This document shows, piece by piece, positions 59,967-64,000 of a stretch of 64,000 nucleotides of DNA. This DNA is from an uncultured Butyrivibrio sp. (GTDB lineage: Bacteria; Bacillota; Clostridia; Lachnospirales; Lachnospiraceae): assembly GCA_946623755.1 (NCBI GenBank), contig CAMORK010000002.1:49748-113747 (forward strand), written 5' to 3'. Numbering within the stretch: position 1 is the stretch's first letter; the number at the start of each line of letters is the position of its first letter. Below the pieces are notes generated by a model, which was not told where the DNA came from, did not search any database, and was given only the letters and a program-made list of their open reading frames with translations. Made by a program: the position numbers and the translations under genes.

Positions 59967-60914
59967 TCACTGCTGTGGGTTAGAAAAATCTATTACGGGA
60001 TTCTCAGGCTCTGTAGTCTTTTCAACGGATATAGCCTGAAGAACAGGGCCCTCGCCCTTATACTCGGGAACAAACTGTTTAACAACCTTGGCTGTTACAG
60101 TAACCCAGTCTTTCTCATTAAGCTCATCAGTTTTATCATACTCACAGGCAAAGCCCAAAAACTGCATATCCTGTGCGCAGCATGTCATTGCCATTCTACC
60201 CGGAACAAATCTGTTATCCGGGAACTCTTCAGGCTTAAGTACAAGACCTTTGAACCTTACGTTCTTACCCTCATATCTCTCAACGTGATCAAGAGCATCA
60301 AGGTAGAACATGCCATATCCGTAATTGTTAAGCTCTATAGGATCCTGGTTGAGGTCGAAAGGAAGATCCTCATCAAGAGTCACATCAACTTCGCCGTCTT
60401 TATCCTCAAAAATGATATCAGCCTTCTGATTGATGGCCTTTACATTTCTCTTGTATGAAGGAAGCTTATCCGCAAGTCCATCACACCTGTTGAACAGGAT
60501 AAGGTCTGAATTTCTTATCTGTTCAGCCAAAAGAGATTTCATATTGCTAAAATAGAGTTCAAAGCTTGAGCAGTCAATAACTGTTATCTGCTGTTCAAGA
60601 TTCCACATTACAGGGAGCTTCATCTCCCTGAAGTTCCACATTCCGTTGTACTCGATAAGAATACGCTCGGGGTTATGCTTGGCATCAAGTGCAATGAGCT
60701 GATTGGGATTAAAATCCTCTTCCTCTTCAATGTACTCAATTACAGTATTTGTGCTCTTTAAAAGCTTCTCATCATAATCATTCTCGCCCTCTTCGCAGAC
60801 AATAAGAAGAGTCTTGCCCTTTGTCCTGAAGTACGGCTGAGCTATTGTGTAGCGGAAAAAGTCAGTCTTCCCCGCATCCAAAAATCCATTAATAATATAT
60901 ACAGGTTTCATCAT
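59967..60914 (-). CDS. G3E-like P-loop GTPase N-terminus with DUF1980/YcgQ-like C-terminus
   Basis: P-loop IINGFLDAGKT; C-terminal VRFKGLVLKPEEFPDNRFVPGRMAMTCCAQDMQFLGFACEY...KDWVTVTAKV resembles TIGR03943/DUF1980 proteins (from memory). Confidence 0.7.
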   Translation of the reverse strand: MMKPVYIINGFLDAGKTDFFRYTIAQPYFRTKGKTLLIVCEEGENDYDEKLLKSTNTVIEYIEEEEDFNPNQLIALDAKHNPERILIEYNGMWNFREMKLPVMWNLEQQITVIDCSSFELYFSNMKSLLAEQIRNSDLILFNRCDGLADKLPSYKRNVKAINQKADIIFEDKDGEVDVTLDEDLPFDLNQDPIELNNYGYGMFYLDALDHVERYEGKNVRFKGLVLKPEEFPDNRFVPGRMAMTCCAQDMQFLGFACEYDKTDELNEKDWVTVTAKVVKQFVPEYKGEGPVLQAISVEKTTEPENPVIDFSNPQQ

Positions 60915-60954: not shown

Positions 60955-62202
60955 TTATGCAAGTCTTCTAAAGAGTTTCTGAAGATTATCTTCGTTGAGC
61001 TCTGAGCCGATTACGCAGAACTTACCTGTAACGTCAGCTGCTCCTGTTCTTACATCAGACTCCCCCGGAACATAGTCAAACTCGATCCATGATCCGTCTG
61101 TTGATGGAACTACTCCCTTGGTACGAAGAACGATACCATAGGTCTCCTCGTCCTCAAGCTTTGAGAGCATTCCTTCGATCTCTTCCTTAGTGTACTTAAG
61201 GGGAGTCTCCATACCCCAGCTCATGAAGATATCATCGGCGTCATGATGATGGTGTTCATGCTCGTGGTCATGCTCATCGTGGTCATGGTGATGCTCATGA
61301 TCGTGTTCATCATGGTCATGGTGATGGTGTTCATGTTCATCATGATCATGGTGGTGCTCATGATCGTGATCATCATGGTCGTGGTGATGGTGTTCATGCT
61401 CATGTTCATCGTGATCATGCTCATCGTGATCGTGGTGATGATGGCACTCACACTCCTCATCATCGCATTCACCGTCGGGATGTGCGCTGTAGATTACAGA
61501 GCCGTCCTCAGCTATAGTCTTATGGCTGCCATGGTCATGATGATGATGGTGATGATGATGCTCCTGCTCCATAACAAGCTTAAGGAGCTCAGCTTCAAGA
61601 TCATTATTACCCTCGAAAGTATCAAGTATCTCTTTTCCTGTGATATCAGCAAGTGGTGTTGTAATAATAGTTGCTTTCTTGTTGTGCTCACGAATAAGCT
61701 CTACAGCAGTCTCAATCTTGGCCTGATCAGCCTTGTCAGTTCTTGTAAGAATGATTGTTCCCGCATTCTCAATCTGATTAATGAAAAACTCACCGAAATT
61801 CTTAATATAAACTTTGGCCTTAGTTGCATCAACAACCGTAACAGCACTGTTAAGCTCCATATCCTCATTGGCATCGGCAATATTCTGGATAGCTCTCATA
61901 ACGTCTGAAAGCTTACCTACACCTGAAGGCTCAATGAGGATTCTCTCTGGTGCATACTGATCCATTACCTGCTTAAGGGATGTCTCAAAATCACCCACAA
62001 GGCTGCAGCAGATACAACCTGAATTCATCTCGGTAATCTCGATTCCGGACTCCTTAAGAAAACCTCCGTCAATACCGATCTCACCAAATTCATTCTCTAT
62101 AAGTACTACCTTAGTTCCGGCAAGAGCTTCTTTCAAAAGCTTCTTTATAAGAGTAGTTTTTCCGGCTCCCAAAAAGCCTGAAATAATATCTATTTTTGTC
62201 AT
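60955..62202 (-). CDS. CobW-family G3E GTPase with very long His/Asp/Glu-rich insert
   Basis: IISGFLGAGKTTLIKKLL, GCICCSL (CxCC), EPSGVGKLSD, CobW C-terminal domain; start set at MTKIDIISG (ORF track begins at 62238). Confidence 0.92.
   Translation of the reverse strand: MTKIDIISGFLGAGKTTLIKKLLKEALAGTKVVLIENEFGEIGIDGGFLKESGIEITEMNSGCICCSLVGDFETSLKQVMDQYAPERILIEPSGVGKLSDVMRAIQNIADANEDMELNSAVTVVDATKAKVYIKNFGEFFINQIENAGTIILTRTDKADQAKIETAVELIREHNKKATIITTPLADITGKEILDTFEGNNDLEAELLKLVMEQEHHHHHHHHDHGSHKTIAEDGSVIYSAHPDGECDDEECECHHHHDHDEHDHDEHEHEHHHHDHDDHDHEHHHDHDEHEHHHHDHDEHDHEHHHDHDEHDHEHEHHHHDADDIFMSWGMETPLKYTKEEIEGMLSKLEDEETYGIVLRTKGVVPSTDGSWIEFDYVPGESDVRTGAADVTGKFCVIGSELNEDNLQKLFRRLA
61236..61566. 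repeat. His/Asp/Glu codon-rich tandem repeat tract inside the CobW-like gene
   Basis: Repeated gtggtcatg/gatcatggtg-type units on the + strand encode about 50 His within ~110 residues. Confidence 0.9.
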
Positions 62203-62298
62203 ATTTTCTCCAATCTGCACATATTGTGCTATAACCACTACAACACATTTATTCTATGCAGATGGATTCTGAATGTCAAGAAAGCCTCATACATCAGA

Positions 62299-64000
62299 TC
62301 AGTATGTCACATGCGCACCGACTATCTGATTTGCAACCTTTCCGCATCCCCTCGCATACTGAATTTCAACCACATTGGCTGCTTCTTCTTCAGTTGGTTC
62401 AAATGTCCACTTGTCCACAGTATCTGTTCCGCATTGATGACCTGTCGGTATCTCCCAACCGGGGTAGTCTCTATATACCGGCTTCCATGAATCACAGTGT
62501 CTGCATCCCCAGTATTCATAAGGTTCTCCTTTGTCGTCATGTGAAATCAGCATCTCATAGTCTCTGAACACAGGAGCCGTAAAGCTGACATGATAGTACG
62601 GTCTTGTAAAACAACCATTCTGCTCCGGAGACAGATACTCATCCCCATACGAGTCTCCATGCATATCTCCGTCATCTCCTATGCCATCCTGACCGTTTGT
62701 ATGATGATGATACGTATAACTGACATTACCTGTCAGTTCTTCAACCTTTATTTCAGTCTTAATGCTCATGATTGCGTTATATATTTCCTCAAAAGTAGCA
62801 TCACTGGCAACTTGAATGTTTTTTGTCGCTAATGCAGAAGCCACCAACTGTTTTCCATTAGCGACAGATGTAAAAGAATCTTTTACCGACTGATGATACT
62901 CTGAAAGGAGCTGCTTGAGTTCCTGAGTATTGCTGTTCTGCCCCTGGACAATGCTGGAATACTGATTCGCAATATTTGTGTTCAAGCTGTTGAATCCGTT
63001 ATCCATACTTGAATTCAAGGAAGTAATATTCTTGCCAAGTTTTTCATTCATTGAATTGATATTGTTTCCAAGATTCTGATTCATGGAATTTATGTCTTTT
63101 CCAAGTTTTTCGTTCATGGAATTTATACCTTTTCCAAGGTTTTCATTCATGGAATTCATACCTTTTCCGAGATTCTCATTCATTGAGCTTATGTTATTTC
63201 CAAGGCTCTTTTGCATACTGTTAATATCACTGCCCAGACTCTCTTTCATGGAGCTGATATTATTCCCGAGATTCTCATTCATAGAGTTAATGCCATTTCC
63301 GAGATTCTCGTTCATTGAGTTAATATCTTTTCCAAGATTCTCATTCATTGAGTTAATGCCATTTCCGAGATTCTCGTTCATTGAGTTAATATCTTTTCCA
63401 AGATTCTCATTCATTGAATTAATACCATTTCCGAGATTCTCATTCATTGAACTGATGTCTTTTCCAAGATTCTCGTTCATAGAACTGATATTATTGCCAA
63501 GACTCTCATGCATATTATTGATATTGCTGCCAAGACTCTCATGCATATTATTGATATTGCTGCCGAGGCTCTCATTCATTGTGCTGATATTATTTCCAAG
63601 ATTCTCATTCATGGAATTGATATCTTTTCCAAGATTCTCGTTCATAGAATTAATATCTTTTCCAAGATTCTCGTTCATAGAGTTAATATCTTTTCCGAGA
63701 TTCTCATTCATGGCACTGATATTATTTCCAAGATTCTCATTCATGCTGTTAATGCCATTTCCAAGATTCTCGTTCATGCTGTTAATGTCATTTCCAAGGC
63801 TCTCGTTCATTGTGCTGATGTTATTACCAAGGTTATCATTCATATTACTGATATCTTTTCCAAGGTTATTGTTCATATCGCTGATATTTTTTCCAAGATT
63901 ATCATTCATATTGCTGATATTTTTTCCAAGATTATCATTCATATTGCTGATATTTTTTCCAAGATTATCATTCATATTGCTGATATCTTTTCCGAGTTTC
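62299..64000 (-). CDS. Hendecad-repeat filamentous protein with unusual C-terminal domain, N-terminus beyond window
   Basis: Frame stays open to the right edge (upstream codons still read ...KLGKDISN); 11-aa repeats (MNENLGKDINS); C-terminal GKQLVASALATKNIQVASDATFEEIYNAIMSI segment and Cys-containing end (CRHCDSW, GCGK). Confidence 0.85.
   Translation of the reverse strand, partial: KLGKDISNMNDNLGKNISNMNDNLGKNISNMNDNLGKNISDMNNNLGKDISNMNDNLGNNISTMNESLGNDINSMNENLGNGINSMNENLGNNISAMNENLGKDINSMNENLGKDINSMNENLGKDINSMNENLGNNISTMNESLGSNINNMHESLGSNINNMHESLGNNISSMNENLGKDISSMNENLGNGINSMNENLGKDINSMNENLGNGINSMNENLGKDINSMNENLGNGINSMNENLGNNISSMKESLGSDINSMQKSLGNNISSMNENLGKGMNSMNENLGKGINSMNEKLGKDINSMNQNLGNNINSMNEKLGKNITSLNSSMDNGFNSLNTNIANQYSSIVQGQNSNTQELKQLLSEYHQSVKDSFTSVANGKQLVASALATKNIQVASDATFEEIYNAIMSIKTEIKVEELTGNVSYTYHHHTNGQDGIGDDGDMHGDSYGDEYLSPEQNGCFTRPYYHVSFTAPVFRDYEMLISHDDKGEPYEYWGCRHCDSWKPVYRDYPGWEIPTGHQCGTDTVDKWTFEPTEEEAANVVEIQYARGCGKVANQIVGAHVTY
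62953..64000. repeat. 33-bp tandem repeats encoding 11-residue units
   Basis: At least 29 clear consecutive 11-aa units from 63019 to 63975, two further degenerate units down to 62953, continuing past the window edge. Confidence 0.93.

Follow-up and report, generated by a model that had tools for sequence, protein, structure and literature searches.

At its right end, the 64,000-nucleotide stretch of Butyrivibrio DNA analysed here (the window) carries on its minus strand a reading frame of 566 codons (62299-63999) that is still open at the window edge and that had been described, from the letters alone, as a long repeat protein with a phage-tail-fibre-like motif. What kind of protein does this gene encode, and does it belong to a phage or to the cell? 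We propose, with a probability of about 0.6, that it encodes a membrane-anchored, phage-fibre-like surface protein, here called the stalk, whose tip would bind a ligand outside the cell and probably contains structural zinc. The parts of the locus are as follows.

59967-60914, minus strand: neighbour, the second CobW-type GTPase (CobW2), which ends in a fused DUF1980/TIGR03943 domain
60955-62202, minus strand: neighbour, CobW/COG0523 GTPase with a His-rich region (CobW1)
62251-62279, minus strand: CobW operon promoter, TTGACA-17-TAGAAT (11 of 12), at a position conserved across Butyrivibrio
62299-64000, minus strand: stalk gene, 3' part, with its stop codon at 62299-62301 and the rest on contig G000:C39
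62302-62760, minus strand: Cys/His-rich tip (HHH, GC, CxxC, C, GC), without LPXTG and without an acidic tail in the window copy
62761-62865, minus strand: joint, VANGKQLVASALATKNIQVASDATFEEIYNAIMSI, by its sequence homologous to a phage tail-fibre motif
62866-63018, minus strand: distal coiled coil from array to joint, without strict units, its last residues modelled as helix
63019-63975, minus strand: 29 strict 11-residue units, consensus M-N-E-N-L-G-K/N-N/D-I-N/S-S, with at least one more on C39
Contig G000:C39, locus L005, 1-909, minus strand: stalk gene, 5' part, with a likely start codon near L005:873

The window and its contig (G000:C2, 113,747 bases) stop at the same position, and the stalk gene overruns both. 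The full gene had been expected to the right of position 64,000; the contig stops there, but the start was recovered from contig C39, whose first 55 bases are identical to the final 55 bases of the window contig, as is typical of the k-mer overlap expected at a repeat, and which holds the N-terminus of the stalk protein. Joined, the two contigs give an open frame of 851 amino acids, or 839 from the likely start (MNFKEK, preceded by GGGAG), and the join is based on this single 55-base overlap together with the matching frame, repeat and orthologue architecture. Because a unit identical twice near the junction would loop a 55-mer assembly graph, the copy counts of the array are minima, and the protein length is a lower bound of at least 839 amino acids. 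The protein consists, in order, of an N-terminal signal anchor (predicted), a coiled coil, at least 30 hendecads, a joint of ~37 residues and the Cys/His-rich tip. On the plus strand, a 306-codon antisense open frame at 63083-64000 (MEFMSFPSFSF...) mirrors the 33-bp repeat and is no gene candidate. The upstream neighbour of the stalk gene, at L005:1107-1553 on the minus strand, encodes a bacterial PH-domain protein (PF03703), and the same cluster lies upstream in seven loci.

The preliminary description had counted at least 29 consecutive 11-residue units up to the window edge, and this count holds: the units are spaced by exactly 11 residues throughout, with 29 strict units in the window and 30 in the joined gene. 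The lag-11 identity of the shaft is 0.79, while shuffles reach at most 0.23, and TRF reports a 33 bp period with 29 copies. All 29 units keep M, L and G, and 28 keep I, whereas dS between units is near saturation, giving a dN/dS of about 0.09. Since the core residues are kept while silent sites are near saturation, the units are real and selected, and a simple assembly artefact, raised earlier as a possible objection, is ruled out for the units seen. The hydrophobic period of the array is 3.66 and its pattern is M-x3-L-x3-I-x2, so that the 11-residue period with 3-4-4 hydrophobic spacing of a hendecad coiled coil is found here, in agreement with the rod proposed previously.

Comparison of the repeat among relatives revealed that the shafts differ. 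Orthologues carry repeats of 7 or 14 residues (e.g. L043 and L064), of 11 or 22 residues (the window, L050, L053, L060 and L071) or of 18 residues (L039, L046 and L051), or have no array (L047, L061 and L062). The hydrophobic period across the orthologous shafts is 3.50-3.67. Because every unit length can be made up of sevens and elevens, the coil can stay in phase, and coiled-coil character is, as judged from these sequences, kept while the repeat unit changes between orthologues.

The joint was previously likened to strings in phage tail fibres, and profile comparison bears this out. Its motif, VSxGKxxLASALLTKGVxxxxDATFxEIxxAI, has a mean identity of 61% within the compared set. When 50,697 phage records were searched with a single joint sequence, only tail-fibre proteins were matched, and weakly (E 0.4), and a 50-column joint profile matched gp30 of Brevibacillus phage Davies with an E value of 6.7e-7 and a structural protein of Paenibacillus phage phiERICV with 4e-4. 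These E values assume a database of 100,000 sequences, and none of 7,350 shuffled decoys matched; as the phage set was picked by motif search, the scores test similarity and not frequency. Separate phylum-wide joint matches lie at loci of distant Bacillota whose proteins match phage tail families, and a second module (DATA..ILSGKTAYVNG..), present in some orthologues, is also found in phages (E 1e-6). These matches show that the joint of the stalk and the phage tail-fibre motif are homologous. In L177, L178, L179 and L196, an extra phage-type module separates the Cys/His region from the coil or joint. In L044 (G042:C1), an in-frame stop within the joint stands in place of the Gly that relatives have in 'SDGKQLLAS', which is either an error or a disrupted copy.

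That the protein ends in a distinct Cys-containing domain was correct in that Cys is concentrated in the tip, where it makes up 241 of 6,403 residues, compared with 7 of 11,905 in the shaft. The CxxC pairs, on the other hand, come down to one CxxC among five Cys in total, while relatives usually have 6-8 Cys. The Cys/His pattern HxH, GGC, HxH, C, CxxC, C, C is largely kept among tips, and the window copy lacks part of it. The tip of a canonical Butyrivibrio relative gave a mainly beta model in which most of the ~145 residues have a pLDDT of 93-97, whereas the model of the window tip is moderate (mean pLDDT 69.6). A fold search of PDB and BFVD with the relative's model gave no convincing whole-domain match. 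Short local Foldseek matches include zinc ribbons, and Pfam zinc-ribbon models give weak scores on several tips, by which the tip likely contains structural zinc. No Pfam or PHROG model in the family libraries searched matches the tip. Against phage and viral collections, tblastn with L062 and L048 and scans with A1 and L048 found no match at the sensitivity used, and the DNA pattern GGCYTxPVYHxH found none in phages or viral contigs.

The tip also changes rapidly. Tip identity averages 40% where CobW1 identity is 93-97%, as would be expected of the exposed binding domain that we predict. The window tip has 22% identity to its nearest relative at 97% CobW1 identity, compared with 35% to 95% in 38 other such pairs, which indicates that the window tip underwent replacement or very rapid divergence. 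The earlier suggestion of a fibre or tether that carries a module at its C-terminus is supported, but for the proposed cross-linking function nothing points to cross-linking.

At the other end of the protein, KQNNSVKxLLRKLKRHDT is followed by a hydrophobic stretch of ~20 residues, with 68% mean pairwise identity over this region, and we take it as a predicted signal anchor. A wall anchor, LPXTG or other, was not seen in the window copy, which, like the moderate model of the window tip, counts against a surface stalk; the window protein ends in ...VGAHVTY, without a C-terminal LPXTG sorting signal. We propose that the positively charged N-terminus and one transmembrane helix would keep the stalk in the membrane with the remainder outside, and that the long coiled coil, possibly trimeric and extended by at least 30 hendecads, would project outward, reaching roughly 85 nm if ~580 residues form a continuous coil. 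The ~37-residue phage-tail-fibre-type joint would end the coil and present the beta-rich, Cys/His-rich tip. The tip, probably held by zinc, would bind something outside the cell, and tip divergence and shaft length would set specificity and reach.

The signal anchor, a genus-wide family and the CobW/COG0523 neighbours all lie beyond what the preliminary description could see. A tip search matched 37 of 61 genomes of the same genus. Among the 24 without a match, 17 were judged by reading to keep a stalk gene whose Cys/His-rich tip has diverged; the gene usually sits next to CobW1 on its upstream side, and in one of these genomes the contig stops before the tip is reached. The stalk gene is thus present in about 54 of the 61 sampled Butyrivibrio genomes, with six lacking a visible copy and one ambiguous. 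Beyond the genus, matches to the tip profile are few (4 of 299 family genomes, the window's own included), and in 398 phylum genomes there were only joint-region matches outside Butyrivibrio. Homologues occur in Eisenbergiella and a few other Lachnospiraceae. Three Lachnospiraceae MAGs (L136-L138) contain stalk-like proteins with the joint and without the Cys/His tip in an identical neighbour set, one member of which is ParM-like by eye.

Downstream of the stalk gene, the order is nearly constant (CobW1, CobW2-DUF1980, a PF06541 gene, rpsT, lepA and hemN), whereas upstream genes vary. Of 37 first-set loci, 36 have the stalk gene immediately upstream of CobW1, and most copies with a diverged tip are placed in the same way. 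A consensus promoter, scored in the window and recognised by eye elsewhere, separates the two genes in nearly all aligned loci and often overlaps the stalk stop codon; it leaves room for readthrough, which may occur from the stalk gene. Just downstream of its -10 element, 62215-62250 holds an imperfect inverted repeat, TGTGTTGTA-N5-TATAGCACA, conserved in many Butyrivibrio, which may be an operator or a hairpin of the leader; folding of the stretch gives a z of -3.5, and its outer stem is partly upstream of the expected transcript start. Within CobW1, a His-rich tandem repeat at 61241-61436 gives spurious Rfam microRNA scores at the DNA level, and an Rfam search of 58-64 kb returned chance-like matches only, below gathering scores and mostly in the His-repeat DNA.

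This neighbourhood raises the alternative of a metal-handling stalk, whose Cys/His tip would capture or sense external zinc together with the two downstream COG0523 GTPases. The adjacency to CobW1 despite varying upstream genes, the Cys/His-rich tip and the long His-rich stretch of CobW1 favour it, as does the existence of zinc-homeostasis members among COG0523 proteins (PMC2770081). However, lepA and hemN are likewise syntenic, and therefore the adjacency may be plain inheritance, while the tip evolves much faster than CobW1. Since a conserved promoter of their own precedes the GTPase genes and homologues in Eisenbergiella and elsewhere lie beside other neighbours and not beside CobW, the metal function is a lead rather than a result, and we consider it unlikely, though the foremost of the alternatives. 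Less likely again is its fullest form, in which a membrane-tethered fibre of phage tail-fibre parts with a zinc-capturing tip acts with the GTPases in zinc acquisition. Neither coiled coils of the Butyrivibrio surface nor the combination of DUF1980 and COG0523 came up in the literature searched. Rated between these two is a secreted fibre. In most Butyrivibrio copies the hydrophobic stretch runs straight into a conserved A-x-A that has a Pro before it, and therefore what we take for an anchor may instead be a long signal peptide, cleaved there so that the stalk is released or otherwise held; yet the N-terminal region is more conserved than is usual for a signal peptide, and in several homologues from outside Butyrivibrio no obvious A-x-A accompanies the hydrophobic segment.

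The remaining alternatives appear far more improbable. An apolipoprotein-like, lipid-binding 11-mer amphipathic helix is suggested by a PF01442 score of 136 bits against a cut-off of 90, but we attribute this score to the 11-residue periodicity, and the array is also matched by many unrelated coiled-coil models. The 11/22-mer periodicity of Apolipoprotein A1/A4/E is not kept among orthologues, whose heptads or 18-mers (or lack of any array) point to a coiled coil and not an 11/3 lipid helix, so that we regard this reading as very doubtful. Profile matches to tape-measure, ZorA, SMC and similar proteins were mostly generic coiled coil, the few above cut-off being explained by periodicity. A prophage or defective phage tail-fibre gene could account for the joint and for the second phage-type module of some orthologues; nevertheless, the housekeeping neighbours rpsT, lepA and hemN are conserved over the genus, a signal anchor is predicted, and the tip has no match in the phage and viral collections at the sensitivity used, leaving this reading the least credible of all. 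A phage origin of the stalk gene was rejected on the grounds of conserved chromosomal synteny without phage genes.

The proposed membrane-anchored surface stalk can be compared with several known systems. Like Bacillota phage tail fibres (Davies gp30, the phiERICV structural protein and PHROG 26419 relatives), it has the same ~37-residue joint before a distal domain, and a second phage-type module recurs in some stalk orthologues; unlike them, it is encoded by a host chromosomal gene and has a predicted signal anchor, a long shaft of tandem coiled-coil units and a Cys/His tip that is unmatched in the phage collections searched. With trimeric autotransporter adhesins of the YadA type it would share a membrane-held coiled-coil stalk of variable length presenting a tip, but its predicted anchor is N-terminal, and no Pfam match to a YadA-type C-terminal membrane barrel was found in the stalk protein P0001 or in the tips. 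LPXTG-anchored coiled-coil proteins of the M-protein type are likewise surface coiled coils of variable repeat length, whereas the stalk has the opposite polarity and, in the window copy, no LPXTG. COG0523/CobW zinc-homeostasis loci share the gene neighbourhood in Butyrivibrio, but the separate promoter and the absence of the link in other genera set the stalk apart. By analogy, the stalk may function as a cell-borne counterpart of a phage tail fibre or of a trimeric adhesin, a resemblance that does not establish membership of either family.

In summary, the stalk is an undescribed modular and probably surface-exposed protein, in the sense that it has no match in the family libraries and literature searched. 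Butyrivibrio are major rumen fibre degraders, and most of their species keep this family, whose tip fold is without a PDB match. The exchange of 7-, 11- and 18-residue units in one shaft among orthologues is a natural experiment in coiled-coil lengthening, and through the shared joint a probable surface stalk of cells is connected with the tail fibres of phages.
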